Below, piece after piece: positions 13,592-23,272 of a stretch of 64,000 bases of DNA (position 1 is the stretch's first letter; each line of letters starts with the position of its first letter). The stretch comes from Humitalea rosea (GTDB lineage Bacteria; Pseudomonadota; Alphaproteobacteria; Acetobacterales; Acetobacteraceae). Where the stretch lies: NCBI RefSeq assembly GCF_003253705.1, contig NZ_QKYU01000022.1, positions 1 to 64,000 of the forward strand, written 5' to 3'. Below the pieces are notes generated by a model. The model ran no database searches and was not told where the DNA came from. It saw nothing but the letters and a program-made list of their open reading frames with translations. Both the position numbers and the translations under genes were made by a program.

Positions 13592-16149
13592 CCGACCGGC
13601 TTCCCGCCCGGCTTGCCCGTCGCCGCCGCGCGGCGCGCATGGCGCTGTGGTGGGAGGCCTTGTGGCCGCGCCTCTGGCCGGTGCTGGGGGTGGTGGGGCT
13701 GTTCCTGGTGGTGGCGCTGCTGGGGCTGCCGCTGCTGCTGCCGCGCTGGCTGCATCTGCTGGGGCTGGCGGGGTTTGCGCTCGCGCTCGTCTGGGTCGCG
13801 CGCCGGGCCTTCCGAGGCTTGCGGCCGCCCGCGCCCGGTGCGGCCGACCGGCGGCTGGAACGCGCCTCGGGGCTGCGGCACCAGCCGCTGGAAACCCTGG
13901 ACGACCACGCGGCGGGGGATGATCCGCTGTCCCGCGCGGTCTGGGCCGAGCACCAGCGCCGCGCCCGCGCCATGATCGGCCGGTTGCGGGTCGGGATTCC
14001 CCGGCCCGGGCTGGCGGGGCTGGACCGGCGGGCGCTGCGCGGGGCGCTGGTGGTGGCGCTGGTCGCCTCGGCCGGGGTTGCCGGGGAGGAAGCGCCGGAG
14101 CGCCTCCGCCGCGCCTTCCTGCCCCAAATGGCGCTGCCCCCCGCGCCCGAGGCGCTGCGGCTGGAGGCCTGGGTGACGCCCCCCGCCTATACCCGCGCGC
14201 CGCCGCTGTTCCTGGATGCCGGCGGCGGGGCAATCACCGTGCCGACCGGCAGCCGGTTGCATCTGGCGCTCTCGGGCGGCAGCGGCGGGGTGCCGGATCT
14301 GCTGGTCGATGGCGTCGCCGCCCCCTTCCGGGGGCTGGACGCGACCTCCTACGCCGCCGAAGCCGTGTTGGACCACGGGCTGACCGCCGCCATCCGCCGC
14401 GATGGCAGCGAACTGGTGCGCTGGGTGCTGACCGCGCGGGCCGATGCGCCGCCGGTCGTGGCCTTCAGCGAACCCCCGGCGCGGGCGGCGCGCGGCCTCG
14501 CGATCCGCCTGCCCTGGCGGGCGGAGGATGACTGGGGCCTCGCCTCGGTGCGGGCCGATCTGCGGCTGGTCGGCCGCCCCGGCGCGGCACCCATGGCGGT
14601 GGACCTGTCGCTGCCCGCGGGGGCGGCGAAGCAGGCGCGCGGCACCGCGCAGCCCGATCTCTCGGCGCATCCCTGGGCCGGGCTGGATGTGGCCGTGACC
14701 CTGGTCGCGACCGATGGCGCCGGCCAGGAGGGGCAGAGCGAGCCGGCGGTGCTGACCCTGCCCGAACGCGCCTTCTCCCACCCCGTCGCCCAGGCGCTGA
14801 TCGCGCAGCGCCGCGCGCTGTCGCTGGACCCCTCGGCCCGCACCGCGGCGCGGCTGGAGCTGGACCGCATCACCGGCAATCCCGAGACCTTCGAGGATGA
14901 CGTCGCGATCTTCCTGACCCTGCGCGCCGCCCGCGCCCGCCTCACCCGCGACCGGCGGCCCGAGGCGGTGCCCGAGGTGCAGGAGATCTTCTGGGATGTC
15001 GCCGTGGCCCTGGAGGAAGGTCGCACCGATCGCACCGCCCGCGCCCTGGCCGAGGCCCGGCAGGCGCTGCGCGAGGCGCTGGAGACCGCCCGCCAGCGCG
15101 AGGAGGCCGCCACCGCCCGCGACCAGGAGGCCCGCCCCGACGCCGAGCGCGCCGAGGCCGAGCGTCGCATCCAGGAATTGCGCGAGGCGATCCGCCGCCA
15201 CCTCGAAGCCCTGGCCGAACGGTTGCAGCGGGAGAATGGCGAGGCGCTGCCCTATGACCCCGCCAACCGGCTGATGGATCAGCGCGACCTCGACCGCCGC
15301 ACCGAGCGCATGCGCGAGGCCAATCGCGAGGACCGCCCCCGCGACGCGCAGCAGGAGCTGGCCGAGCTGGAGCGGATGCTCGACCAGCTCGAACAGGGCC
15401 AGGCCAGCCGCGGCGAAAGTGCCGAGCGCCAGCAGCGCCGCGAACGCGGGCAGCAGCAGATGGGCGTGATGCAGGACATGGTGCGCCGCCAGCAGGCCCT
15501 GCTGGACCAGGGCCACCAGCGCGCCGAGGCCGCCGACCAGCGCCGCCAGACCGCCCGCCGCCAGCCCGGCCGCCAACCGCCGGCGGGCGAGGAGGCCTCG
15601 CCCGGCGATGCCGCGCATGACGCCCGGGTGCAGCGCGCCCTGCGCCGTGCCCTGGGCGAGGTGATGCAGCAATTCGGCGATGTCACCGGCGAGGTGCCCG
15701 AGCCTCTCGGCCGCGCCGACCAGGCGATGCGGGATGCGCAGGCGCGGCTGGGCGCCGGCGGCGACGCCCGCCCCGACCAGCAGCGCGCCTTGCGTGAACT
15801 GGCCGAGGGCAGCCGCCAGATGGCGCAGCAGATGCAGCGCCAGTTCGGCCAGTCCGAGCCCGGCGACGACCAGGGCGAAGGCGAGGGCGAGGGCATGGCC
15901 GATGGCGACCAGCAAGGCGGCCAGGGCCAGGCGCAATCGGCCGAGCAGGGCCAGGGCCGCGACCCGCTCGGCCGGCGCGCGCGGGAGGCCCCGGGGGCCG
16001 CCGAGAACAATGGCGACACCCGCGTGCCGGATGAGGCCGAGCTGCTCCGCTCGCGCCGCATCCAGGAAGAACTGCGCCGGCGCGGGGCGGAACGGGCCCG
16101 GCCGGTGCAGGAACTGGATTACATCGACCGGCTGTTGAAGCGGTTCTGA
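13588..16149 (+). CDS. DUF4175 / TIGR02302 family membrane protein
   Basis: Large protein of 853 residues and unknown function, characteristic of alphaproteobacteria and usually next to lysA. Two or more hydrophobic helices lie near residues 25-62, with a further one near 150-165. A beta-rich middle follows, then a long charged, glutamine/arginine-rich helical region (about 490-770) that is probably coiled coil. The C-terminus ends LDYIDRLLKRF. GTG 13588 overlaps the lysA stop. The strongly biased composition creates long open frames on the opposite strand (for example 13540-15936), which are shadows. Function unknown; an envelope role is likely. Confidence 0.85.
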   Translation: MTDRLPARLARRRRAARMALWWEALWPRLWPVLGVVGLFLVVALLGLPLLLPRWLHLLGLAGFALALVWVARRAFRGLRPPAPGAADRRLERASGLRHQPLETLDDHAAGDDPLSRAVWAEHQRRARAMIGRLRVGIPRPGLAGLDRRALRGALVVALVASAGVAGEEAPERLRRAFLPQMALPPAPEALRLEAWVTPPAYTRAPPLFLDAGGGAITVPTGSRLHLALSGGSGGVPDLLVDGVAAPFRGLDATSYAAEAVLDHGLTAAIRRDGSELVRWVLTARADAPPVVAFSEPPARAARGLAIRLPWRAEDDWGLASVRADLRLVGRPGAAPMAVDLSLPAGAAKQARGTAQPDLSAHPWAGLDVAVTLVATDGAGQEGQSEPAVLTLPERAFSHPVAQALIAQRRALSLDPSARTAARLELDRITGNPETFEDDVAIFLTLRAARARLTRDRRPEAVPEVQEIFWDVAVALEEGRTDRTARALAEARQALREALETARQREEAATARDQEARPDAERAEAERRIQELREAIRRHLEALAERLQRENGEALPYDPANRLMDQRDLDRRTERMREANREDRPRDAQQELAELERMLDQLEQGQASRGESAERQQRRERGQQQMGVMQDMVRRQQALLDQGHQRAEAADQRRQTARRQPGRQPPAGEEASPGDAAHDARVQRALRRALGEVMQQFGDVTGEVPEPLGRADQAMRDAQARLGAGGDARPDQQRALRELAEGSRQMAQQMQRQFGQSEPGDDQGEGEGEGMADGDQQGGQGQAQSAEQGQGRDPLGRRAREAPGAAENNGDTRVPDEAELLRSRRIQEELRRRGAERARPVQELDYIDRLLKRF

Positions 16150-16319
16150 TGCGCCCGGATGCCCTCGGGCATCCTGCGCGCCCCTCGCTGTCCCCCGCCA
16201 TCCCGACCGTCCCGGTCCCCAAGGCCCCGCGCCCGGCGCCCGTCAACCATGCCGATGCGGGCATGTGCAGCGCACCGCCGCTTATGTCAGCCTTGATGCC
16301 ATATCTGGAGGAAACCCAT

Positions 16320-16916
16320 TTGGACGCCGCCTGGTTCGCCTCGGTGCTCGCCTTCGCGCTGTCCACGACGGCGACGCCGGGGCCGAACAACGCCATGGTC
16401 ATGGCCTCGGGCGCGACCTGGGGGCTGCGGCTGACGGTGCCGCATATCCTGGGGATCTCGCTCGGCTTCGCGGCGATGATGCTGGCGCTGGCGCTGGGCG
16501 TCGGGGGTGTGTTTCGCGCGGCCCCCTGGCTCTATGGCGTGTTGCGCTGGCTGGGTGCTGCCTATCTGCTCTGGCTTGCCTGGCGCATCGCCACGGCCCG
16601 GCCGGGGGTGGCGCGCGGGCGCAGCGCCTCGCGGCCCTTCGGCTTCTTCCAGGCGGCGGCGTTCCAATGGGTGAACCCCAAGGCCTGGGCGATCGGCGTG
16701 GGCGCGGTGGTGACCTTCCTCGGCGATGCCGGGCCGCTGGTGCAGGCCTTCACCCTGACCGGCCTCTTCCTGGCCGTGACCCTGCCGATCACGATCATCT
16801 GGGCGCTGATGGGGGTGGGGGCGGGGCGGATGCTCCAGAGCGAAGGGGCGTTGGTCTGGTTCAACCGGGTGCTGGCGGTGCTGCTGGTGGCGTCACTGGT
16901 GCCGATGCTGCTTTAG
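16320..16916 (+). CDS. LysE-family amino acid exporter (RhtB-like)
   Basis: Inner-membrane exporter of amino acids or homoserine-type compounds; 198 residues, six hydrophobic segments. The family motif TATPGPNNAMVMASG lies just after the first helix. TTG 16320 is preferred because TGGAGGA (16306-16312) stands seven bases before it and gives the usual family length. In-frame ATGs at 16284 and 16296 would add an atypical leader. The 170 bases upstream (16150-16319) show no gene. The cargo cannot be read from sequence; proximity to lysA is suggestive only. Confidence 0.88.
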   Translation: MDAAWFASVLAFALSTTATPGPNNAMVMASGATWGLRLTVPHILGISLGFAAMMLALALGVGGVFRAAPWLYGVLRWLGAAYLLWLAWRIATARPGVARGRSASRPFGFFQAAAFQWVNPKAWAIGVGAVVTFLGDAGPLVQAFTLTGLFLAVTLPITIIWALMGVGAGRMLQSEGALVWFNRVLAVLLVASLVPMLL

Positions 16917-16926
16917 GGTGGTCCTT

Positions 16927-16985
16927 CGAGGGGCTGGCCCCTCGGGCACCCCAGCAGAAACAGGGTGTTTCTGCACTTCCCCCTT
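16927..16985 (+). repeat. double-hairpin dispersed repeat, copy A
   Basis: A 59-base element with two palindromes: CGAGGGG/CCCCTCG (16927-16944) and GCAGAAACA/TGTTTCTGC (16954-16974). It ends in CTTCCCCCTT. A near-identical copy in the opposite orientation lies at 22305-22366; outside the first loop only three bases differ. It fills most of the gap between the LysE-type gene and the convergent PhnD-like gene. Possible roles are a bidirectional terminator, an mRNA 3' stabiliser or a REP-like mobile palindrome. Confidence 0.88.
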
Positions 16986-16989
16986 GGGG

Positions 16990-17943
16990 TTACCGCCGCC
17001 TGCGCTCGGCGGCCTCGGCCCGGCGCATGTCCACGAATACGGCATACTCCTCATGCCGCGTTGGCGCCCAGCCGATGGCGCTGCCGCGCTCGATCGCGCG
17101 ATGGATCTCGGGCGCGGCGCTGGGCAGGGCCAGATGGAAGGCGATGAAATCCGCCTTGAAGCTGGCCGGCAACTCGGTCCGCACCACCAGCGGCCCGTTC
17201 TGGATCGGGCGCGAGTGCCAGATGATCCGCAGGTCGGACATCTTCACCAGCCCCTTGTCCACCGCCGCCCGCAGCGCGCCGCGGGAAAACCCCTCGGACT
17301 GCTCGCCCTGGCCGCTGGCCCAGGCGACCCCGGCATCGAACTGCCGCCCGAGCACGGCGACCATCAACTGCTCATGCCCGCCGGCGAAGCCGGTGCGGCC
17401 GAAGAACTGGTCGGGGTTGATGCCTTGCGCCCGCATCTCGGCGCGGGGGATCAGATAGCCGCTGGCGGAATTGGGATCGGCCCAGCCCATCGCCTTGCCG
17501 CGCATCTCCTCCAGGCTGGTGATCCCGCTATCGGCGCGGACATACATGACGGAGACATAGGAGGTGCTGCCATCGGCCTCCTTGGTCACCAGCAGCGGCT
17601 CGACGCCGCCATTGGTGTCCATCCAGGTGCCGGCATAGGCGGCGGGCGACATGTAGGAGGCTTCGAGCTGCTTCGCGGCAAAGGCCTGCTGCACGCCGAG
17701 GTAGTCCGCCGCGAAGAACAGCCGCACGGGGATGCCGAAAATGGTCTCCATCAGCGCCCGATAGCCTTCGTAGCGGCCAAGGCGGTCGGCCTCGTTCTCC
17801 CCGCCCAGGATGCCGAAGCGCAGCACCGGGATCTGCGCCGCCCAGGGGCGGCGGCCCGGCGCTGGCATCGGGTAGGTGGCAGGCTGCGCCATCGCCGGCA
17901 GCGCGCCGAGGAAGGGCAGGGTCAAAAGGGCGCGGCGGTGCAT
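16990..17943 (-). CDS. PhnD-like phosphate/phosphonate ABC substrate-binding protein
   Basis: Periplasmic binding protein of the PhnD/PtxB superfamily, 317 residues. A signal peptide (MHRRALLTLPFLGALPAMA) is followed by RFGILGGENEADR, where the family has its first beta strand. SPAAYAGTW and WADPNSASGYLIPR correspond to the ligand-contact loops (D-x-NSxSG type). No permease or ATPase lies beside it, so it is an orphan receptor. The true ligand could be phosphonate, phosphite or another small anion. Its stop lies four bases past copy A of the repeat. Confidence 0.85.
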   Translation of the reverse strand: MHRRALLTLPFLGALPAMAQPATYPMPAPGRRPWAAQIPVLRFGILGGENEADRLGRYEGYRALMETIFGIPVRLFFAADYLGVQQAFAAKQLEASYMSPAAYAGTWMDTNGGVEPLLVTKEADGSTSYVSVMYVRADSGITSLEEMRGKAMGWADPNSASGYLIPRAEMRAQGINPDQFFGRTGFAGGHEQLMVAVLGRQFDAGVAWASGQGEQSEGFSRGALRAAVDKGLVKMSDLRIIWHSRPIQNGPLVVRTELPASFKADFIAFHLALPSAAPEIHRAIERGSAIGWAPTRHEEYAVFVDMRRAEAAERRRR

Positions 17944-21387: not shown

Positions 21388-22296
21388 ATGGCCACGCACC
21401 GCTTTCATCCCATCCGATATTACAACGCCATCGGCACCGCCGAGCCCTGCCTTCGCGTCGCCGATGGCGACACGGTGGTGACGGATACGGTCGACGCCTC
21501 AGGTCTCGATGCCAGCGAGGTTGCCGTCGCGAGCCGGCCAAACCCGATGACCGGGCCATTCTACGTCGAAGGTGCGGAGCCTGGTGACACCCTCACCGTC
21601 CACATCGACCGGCTGACGCCAAGCCGGGCGACCGGTTGGACCAATTCGCCGCTCGCCCTCACTGTGCTGGACCCGGCCGCGATCCTGGATCGGCCGCCGA
21701 CGCAACGGGTGGTGTGGGATATCGACGGCAAGGCCGGGTCGGTCCGGCTGCAGGAGCCGGTGAAGGGGCTGGAGTCCTTCTCCCCGCCGCTCCAACCCAT
21801 GATCGGCTGCTTCGGGGTCGCGCCGGCGGGCGGGCAGGCGCTGTCCACCGCGACCAGCGCACAGAATGGCGGCAACATGGACTATCGCCTGTTTGCCCCG
21901 GGAACGACGGCCTGGTTCCCGGTCTCCGTGCCGGGAGCGCTCTTCTATCTGGGCGACGGCCACGCCTGCCAGGGTGACGGTGAGATCGTCGGCACCGGCA
22001 TCGAGACGTCCTTCGAGATGGAGGTCACCTTCCGTGTGCTGAAGCGCAGGATCCTCTGGCCGCGCGGCGAGACGGCCGATGATATCTTCACCGTCGGCAA
22101 TGCCCGGCCGCTCGATCAGGCCCTGCAGCACGCCACCACCGAGATGATGCGGTGGCTCGGCGAGGATTATGGGCTGGACGCGCGGGCGGCCAGCCATCTG
22201 ATGGGCCAGGTCGTGCGCTATGATGTCGGCAATGTCTTCAACCCCGCCTACACGGTTGCCTGCCGCATTGCGAAGCGCTGGCTGACGAAACCGTAG
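21388..22296 (+). CDS. acetamidase/formamidase family protein
   Basis: Zn-dependent amidase of the FmdA/AmdA fold, hydrolysing short aliphatic amides to ammonia and the acid. It has 302 residues with NPMTGPFYVEGAEPGDTL, PMIGCFGVAP, NGGNMDYRLF and LGDGHACQGDGEI, the family's metal and substrate blocks. ATG 21388 follows GGGGAG. The gene is monocistronic: a structured leader upstream, an intrinsic terminator downstream. It may supply nitrogen from formamide-like compounds or act in a catabolic pathway. Confidence 0.92.
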   Translation: MATHRFHPIRYYNAIGTAEPCLRVADGDTVVTDTVDASGLDASEVAVASRPNPMTGPFYVEGAEPGDTLTVHIDRLTPSRATGWTNSPLALTVLDPAAILDRPPTQRVVWDIDGKAGSVRLQEPVKGLESFSPPLQPMIGCFGVAPAGGQALSTATSAQNGGNMDYRLFAPGTTAWFPVSVPGALFYLGDGHACQGDGEIVGTGIETSFEMEVTFRVLKRRILWPRGETADDIFTVGNARPLDQALQHATTEMMRWLGEDYGLDARAASHLMGQVVRYDVGNVFNPAYTVACRIAKRWLTKP

Positions 22297-22304
22297 GGGC
22301 GGCT

Positions 22305-22366
22305 AAGGGGGAAGCGCAGAAACACCTTGTTTCTGCTGGGGTGCTCGAGGGGTGAACAGCCCCTCG
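22305..22366 (-). repeat. double-hairpin dispersed repeat, copy B
   Basis: A 62-base element in the opposite orientation to the copy at 16927-16985. Palindromes are GCAGAAACA/TGTTTCTGC (22316-22336) and CGAGGGG/CCCCTCG (22346-22366). Both stems are perfect, and the differences from copy A fall in loops and linkers. It again lies between two convergent genes (acetamidase and the HMG-CoA-lyase-like gene). Confidence 0.88.
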
Positions 22367-22376
22367 ATCTTTTTCC
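22345..22376 (+). terminator. intrinsic terminator of the acetamidase gene
   Basis: TCGAGGGG (22345-22352) pairs with CCCCTCGA (22360-22367) and is followed by TCTTTTTCCC. On the + strand this is a standard stem plus T-run, ending acetamidase transcription. It is built from one half of the dispersed double-hairpin repeat (copy B). Confidence 0.8.
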
Positions 22377-22378
22377 CG

Positions 22379-23272
22379 CTACGCCGCCTTGCGCACCGCA
22401 GGCACGCCCCGCATCCGCCCGCCCGGCATGCCGCCCGGCACCGCGGCCGCCAGATCCGCCGCCGTCAGCAGGGTGCGGTAGTCGAAGCCGGTCTCGACCC
22501 CCATGCGGGAGAACATCCAGGCGACATCCTCGGTCGCGACATTGCCGGTGGCGCCGGGGGCGAAGGGGCAGCCGCCGAGCCCGCCCGCGGCGCTGTCGAT
22601 CACCCGCGCGCCCGCCCGCCAGGCTGCCGCGACATTGGCCAGCCCCATGCCGTAGGTGTCATGGCCATGGAAGGCGAAGCGCGGCCCGAACAGCGCGACG
22701 GCGTCGGCGAACACCCGCTCCACCTGGTCCGGCGCCGCATTGCCGGTGGTGTCGCAGAGCGCGATCTCCATGGCAGGGTCCAGCTCGGCGATGCGCGCCA
22801 CCCAGTCGATCACCATCGGCTCCGGCACCACCCCCTCGAAGGGGCAGTGGAAGACGCAGGAGAGGTTGAAGCGCAGCGCCACCTCCGGCGGGGTGTCGAG
22901 GATGATGGCGGAGAGGCCGGCGAAGCTTTCCTCCCGCGTCGCATTCAGATTGGCGCGGTTGTGGCCTTCGGTCGCGCTCATGAACAGGCCGAGGCGATGC
23001 GCGCCATGGGCCAGGGCCAGGTCGAAGCCGCGCCGGTTCGGCACCAGCACGCAGCATTCCAGCCCCGGCAACTGGCGCGCGGCGGCGAGGACCTGGGCGG
23101 TATCGGCCATCTGCGGGATGGCGCGGGGGGAGACGAAGGCGCCGACCTCCATCCGCCGCGCGCCGGCGGCGTGCAGGGCGCGGACCAGCGCGATCTTGGT
23201 GTCGGTGGGCACGAAGCCGTCGATGGACTGAAGCCCGTCGCGCGGGGCGACCTCGCTGATGGTGACCTTCAT
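22379..23272 (-). CDS. hydroxymethylglutaryl-CoA lyase family protein
   Basis: DRE-TIM metallolyase of 297 residues. It opens with EVAPRDGLQ (metal-binding RDG), then GAFVSPRAIPQMAD. The HMG-CoA lyase pattern AAGGLGGCPFAPGATGNVATED carries the catalytic cysteine (seen at about residues 228-250). It cleaves HMG-CoA to acetoacetate and acetyl-CoA, or a related acyl-CoA. ATGA overlap with the upstream CoA-transferase gene suggests a two-step route: activate an acid as its CoA ester, then cleave it. Citramalyl-, HMG- or similar CoA substrates fit. Confidence 0.92.
   Translation of the reverse strand: MKVTISEVAPRDGLQSIDGFVPTDTKIALVRALHAAGARRMEVGAFVSPRAIPQMADTAQVLAAARQLPGLECCVLVPNRRGFDLALAHGAHRLGLFMSATEGHNRANLNATREESFAGLSAIILDTPPEVALRFNLSCVFHCPFEGVVPEPMVIDWVARIAELDPAMEIALCDTTGNAAPDQVERVFADAVALFGPRFAFHGHDTYGMGLANVAAAWRAGARVIDSAAGGLGGCPFAPGATGNVATEDVAWMFSRMGVETGFDYRTLLTAADLAAAVPGGMPGGRMRGVPAVRKAA

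Follow-up and report, generated by a model that had tools for sequence, protein, structure and literature searches.

A dispersed double-hairpin repeat beside stop codons in Humitalea rosea and other Acetobacteraceae

Introduction

The described systems closest to the element studied here are the REP/BIME sequences, which are short, extragenic, multicopy palindromes that sit near gene ends, frequently pair up in inverted orientation and occur for the most part where genes converge or run in the same direction (PMC3733652; PMC12306157). E. coli REPs are described as exonuclease barriers, and ribosome stalling is reported for those no more than 15 nt from a stop codon, with nrdAB as one reported example (PMC12306157, citing Liang 2015). 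A 2013 survey places the Acetobacteraceae among the families without CGTC repeats (PMC3733652). In a 2025 survey of palindromes, 1,369 REPs are predicted for Lichenicola cladoniae, a member of this family; the accessible text of that survey does not describe such a double-hairpin element (PMC12306157). Also relevant are IS5, for which YTAR is the reported duplication motif (PMC10359306), and terminators, which are repressed by the ribosome when they lie a few nucleotides past the stop codon and work when more distant (PMC4824070).

Here we analyze the first 64,000 nucleotides of contig NZ_QKYU01000022.1 of Humitalea rosea (the window and the host, respectively), which carry two copies, A and B, of a double-hairpin repeat. 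Like REP/BIME elements, this repeat is multicopy (about 26 sites in the host genome), extragenic, palindromic and located near gene 3' ends, and its units form inverted pairs at many sites of the family, A and B being solo. Unlike the REP/BIME elements of E. coli and Pseudomonas, its unit comprises two hairpins; by description it resembles EFA-1 and Pae-1 of other genera, for which a double hairpin is likewise predicted (PMC2267715). The host has no RAYT gene, which sets the repeat apart from REPIN-type REPs, and inspection of an alignment of 52 sequences found no conserved tag of the GTAG/CGTC REP superfamilies. The 220-bp units of one relative (G387), with 22-bp TIRs and 4-bp YTAR duplications, resemble IS5-type MITEs (PMC10359306), whereas the host copies, including A and B, are without TIRs. 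With bidirectional intrinsic terminators the repeat shares a GC hairpin between convergent genes and, in some copies, a T-tract; in contrast to them it is dispersed, its copies have unpaired sequence in common and most are without a T-tract.

Repeats of this general kind are already known. Our literature search found no published description of this element, and likewise none of a REP or MITE in Roseomonas. A and B are members of a large family of short palindromic repeats that appears to be undescribed. It gives the Acetobacteraceae, reported without one main REP superfamily, a REP-like repeat of their own that differs in anatomy and comes without a REP transposase.

Two double hairpins between convergent genes

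Copy A (16927..16985, + strand) is a solo half-element consisting of a first hairpin (H1), a linker, a second hairpin (H2) and a tail, as seen by direct reading and by a match to our wider family model, R2, at 16921-16985 (66.0 bits, E 1.1e-11 in the window). H1 (16927..16944, +), CGAGGGG-CTGG-CCCCTCG, has a 7-bp stem closed by a CTGG loop, and H2 (16954..16974, +), GCAGAAACA-GGG-TGTTTCTGC, a 9-bp stem closed by GGG; the C-rich tail, ACTTCCCCCTT (16975..16985, +), is conserved in the family. A LysE-type translocator gene (16149..16916, +) ends at this copy and a gene for a phosphonate-binding periplasmic protein (16990..17943, −) converges on it. H1 begins 11 nt past the final base of the TAG of the + gene and H2 38 nt past this stop, with 15 nt separating H2 from the stop of the − gene.

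Copy B (22305..22366, −), likewise a solo half-element by direct reading, is matched by R2 at 22305-22372 with 62.7 bits. On the − strand it has an H1 with a 7-bp core stem and a 7-nt loop (22346..22366), an H2 with a 9-bp stem and an AGG loop (22316..22336), and a tail identified by direct reading (22305..22315). An acetamidase/formamidase gene (21388..22296, +) converges on it and an HMGL-like lyase gene (22379..23272, −) ends at it. Outside the first loop A and B differ at exactly three places (CCCCTCGG/A, ACAG/AGG and CTGCA/G), and all stem pairs are intact in both. RNA folding predicts both hairpins in each copy, with z-scores against shuffled sequences of −1.7 for A and −3.3 for B, modest values that reflect the GC-rich region. 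Two perfect hairpins per copy, a nearly identical copy on the opposite strand with three differences outside the first loop, and placement between convergent genes had all been proposed in a sequence-only reading of this DNA; direct reading, RNA folding and gene calls bear them out.

Scanning the 64-kb window with the family model gave A and B as the only good-scoring copies. Rfam gave no match at the gathering score in the window, and its hits in 12 loci stayed below threshold. In the 4.97-Mb host genome the exact 21-nt H2 pattern was found six times and a reversed control pattern not once, which argues that its recurrence is not due to chance.

A repeat family of the Acetobacteraceae

Two covariance models were built, R1 from 8 host copies and R2 from 52 half-elements. 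R1 gave 13 host matches at E<1e-6, together with matches in relatives, and R2 gave 30 host matches at E<0.003. R2 matches are present in 269 of 397 Acetobacteraceae genomes and 69 of 102 genera; among other alphaproteobacteria they were found in 4 of 285 genomes. The large scans scored at most 13-18 candidates per genome, so that copy numbers are lower bounds, and used a short calibration that makes the E-values rough. A family-wide 3' element, as first suggested from A and B, is strongly supported: the scans of the host and its relatives returned many copies beyond these two, and, as described below, stems change in compensating fashion and copies lie close to stop codons, the opposite of what would have refuted the suggestion. 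The host-type H2, GCAGAAACANGGTGTTTCTGC, was found in the host only among the 397 genomes, bar one isolated match with one mismatch. No match was found in the plasmid collection searched. Two of the four outside genomes, both of one genus in another alphaproteobacterial family (G655 and G558; loci L149, L150, L153 and L154), each have at least 10-12 model matches.

Anatomy and compensating stem changes

The consensus half-element has an H1 of about CGAGGGGCnCTGCCCCTCG, the linker nCCCCnsC, an H2 of about GCAGGAAnCTGAGnTTCCTGC and a tail of about ACCTYCC. Over the 52 halves, 94.8% of the pair cells hold standard pairs and double changes occur at 15 of 18 pairs. The covariation score is 0.444, compared with 0.173 for shuffled and at most 0.158 for slid alignments. 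GU pairs are rare (9 of about 845 paired cells, or about 1%), which suits a DNA palindrome or use of both strands over an RNA read from one strand.

At many sites two unlike halves stand face to face in the order H1-H2-spacer-H2'-H1'. The spacer is short and AT in the host and in G387, a few bases in G396, and a long locus-specific palindrome in G010, G001 and G019. In G010 (L033, L043, L048, L051, L053 and L055) the pairs are centred on a long palindrome that is near-perfect and has arms of a different sequence at each locus. A conserved composite of about 250 bp in G403 (L080 and L128-L134) has extra hairpins beyond the half-element, and a piece resembling it lies past the HMGL gene in L247. 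In genus g44 (L061, L064, L121, L125, L126 and others), the H1 stem (TTGAGGGGC...GCCCCTCAA) contains the TGA stop of the adjacent gene. Two host contig ends that adjoin elements (L013, 1672-1794; L100, 1-123) have 123 bp in common at 99% identity, probably an unresolved repeat or a contig overlap.

Copies beside stop codons

To place the copies we called genes with a custom codon-usage finder, which recovered the window genes sensibly; sites were chosen for this tally by model score and not at random. Convergent gaps hold 18 of the 22 resolvable host sites (26 in total) and divergent gaps none, against a background in which 11 of 98 gaps are convergent and account for 10% of non-coding length. 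A stop codon lies within −12 to +15 nt of the element at 24 of the 26 host sites; among the 127 sites in relatives, 115 have a stop next to them and 84 of these fall within the same range. In tandem gaps of relatives the element is nearer the stop side in 55 of 72 cases, and solo copies there show a moderate orientation bias (21 sense to 12 antisense). Only 3 of 173 sites are intragenic.

Convergent gaps of the host that lack an element have a median length of 8 bp, and half of the element-bearing convergent gaps fall to −13..14 bp once the element is removed; this closeness to the empty-gap median points to insertion into existing small gaps. Host stops near elements show a slight excess of TAA/TAG (17 of 37, compared with 27 of 105 elsewhere). 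In relatives other than G387, stops near elements are TGA in 96 of 126 cases, compared with 162 of 202 elsewhere. YTAR-targeted insertion into stop codons was considered as a general cause of the abutment; it fits G387, where five of five stops are TAG, but not the other relatives, whose TGA frequency near elements is similar to that elsewhere. In this GC-rich genome, element-bearing ends do not clearly surpass other gene ends in hairpin energy, and we dropped this measure as a marker of such ends because it is uninformative at this GC content.

A MITE form in one relative

In G387 the repeat core lies within 219-220-bp units with 22-bp TIRs (TAGCAGGCTGCGGAAATTCGCC). Of 14 complete copies, ten are flanked by the same 4 bp on both sides, in every case of the form YTAR. 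The five stops adjoining MITE copies are TAG without exception, and it is the duplicated target that forms them. The repeat thus links a MITE with YTAR duplications to stop codons, where an insertion of this kind can leave the stop intact. About 45 copies of the 220-bp MITE are present in this genome (L060, L101-L110 and L308), L308 being a longer variant of about 345 bp with two like halves.

By inspection, no TIRs or target duplication were seen at the host copies, A and B included, and no parent IS with the G387 TIRs was found in the draft G387 genome. A REP transposase was rejected as the mover: neither the host nor 8 of 9 element-bearing relatives has PF01797, the family of Y1 transposases that includes RAYT. 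The earlier suggestion of a REP-like mobile palindrome holds in kind, though with the mover of true REPs missing and the G387 core sitting in an IS5-type MITE instead.

Proposed function at 3' ends and alternative explanations

On balance we lean towards a REP/BIME-like, MITE-related 3'-end repeat that may serve as a two-way barrier, protecting mRNA 3' ends and causing partial termination. A and B are solo halves of a palindromic repeat that is dispersed and modular and whose full unit has two unlike double-hairpin halves facing each other. The repeat would have spread in MITE or REP fashion, with copies almost only beside stop codons and, in the host, chiefly between convergent genes. There it would be transcribed as a 3' UTR common to both genes, and each mRNA would form two GC-rich hairpins past its stop codon, a near one that the terminating ribosome can reach and a far one, about 35-50 nt on, that is free to fold. 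Approached from either side, the element may block 3'-5' exonucleases, slow or stop RNA polymerase and insulate the convergent genes. Since ribosomes repress stop-proximal terminators, the near hairpin would terminate its own gene poorly and the far one would be a better candidate, a division that fits the two-hairpin design. A role as mRNA protector, also raised by the sequence-only reading, would fit. Its bidirectional terminator finds support in some copies only: read on the + strand, the H1 of copy B is followed by a T-tract (TCTTTTTCCC), together forming an intrinsic-terminator-like site for the acetamidase gene (22345..22377, +). T is enriched after H1 in the host (2.6 versus 1.4 per 9 nt), but a clear T-tract follows only 4 of 27 host halves, and classical termination therefore cannot be general. 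The scarcity of GU pairs, the hairpin energies at element-bearing ends, the moderate sense bias of tandem solo copies in relatives and the opposite orientations found at one gene end in different genera also weigh against the barrier reading.

The barrier reading has to be weighed against a neutral or selfish MITE/REP-like repeat that inserts regardless of function, its hairpins serving its own transposition, and that survives only beside stops since promoters, operons and coding sequence are purged of copies. We regard this as possible but doubtful. It would account for the complete G387 copies with TIRs and duplications, for the host convergent gaps of which half return to empty-gap size as insertion predicts, and for the variable presence of elements at orthologous gene ends; the near restriction of the host-type H2 to the host also implies that this type spread within the host lineage. 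It sits less easily with the concentration of host copies in small convergent gaps, despite their small share of non-coding length, and with the use of identical gene ends in several genera, and neither a parent IS with the G387 ends, nor RAYT, nor host TIRs were found. That the hairpins act instead as a REP-type translational brake, in which a stable hairpin no more than 15 nt from the stop would stall the terminating ribosome and cut output of the upstream gene, is unlikely in our judgement. In its favour are the E. coli REPs reported to stall ribosomes within that distance (PMC12306157, citing Liang 2015); most copies here lie that near a stop and the nrdA 3' end is a recurrent site, but such proximity would also follow from very small gaps.

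An action at the DNA level, with the palindrome bound by a protein such as gyrase or a nucleoid factor on supercoiled DNA between convergent genes, seems to us quite improbable. Some E. coli BIMEs are sites bound by gyrase or a nucleoid factor, and the near-perfect 21-bp H2 palindrome, the very few GU pairs, the use of either orientation and the convergent placement are all in keeping with such a site, yet conservation covers two hairpins and also their separate, unpaired C-rich parts. An independent origin as ordinary intrinsic terminators, gene by gene, is scarcely credible: beyond the T-tracts of copy B and a few others, most copies have none, and the unpaired linker and tail sequences common to unrelated loci contradict it. 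The many natural copies beside known genes provide material for testing REP action at mRNA ends.

Matching gene ends in several genera

Comparison of flanks shows that the nrdA-nrdB gap bears an element in the host (L021) and at L194, L035, L071 and L059. Further gene ends match across genera (L010/L072, L018/L162 and L077/L157), and at the last two pairs the elements are oppositely oriented; this sharing was weighed against chance by rough judgement only. Presence varies among orthologous gene ends: a survey of nrdA 3' ends in 30 genera found clear elements in G000, G043 and G080 and none in most, and at the HMGL 3' end, where the host has copy B, G003 has an apparent piece of the G403 composite. 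L072, whose gene end matches that of L010, carries an H2 type other than the host's, which implies that copies were re-inserted or homogenised within a genome.

As a rather speculative extension, an IS5-type MITE lineage could have been adopted across the Acetobacteraceae as a standard two-way 3'-end module. Its second hairpin would drift in concert within each genome, with the host type GCAGAAACA at many sites and a different type where the same gene end is occupied in another genus, and it might follow a binding factor specific to the lineage. At L021 and L059, the two halves in the nrdA-nrdB gap are separated by an unrelated extra 255-289 bp.
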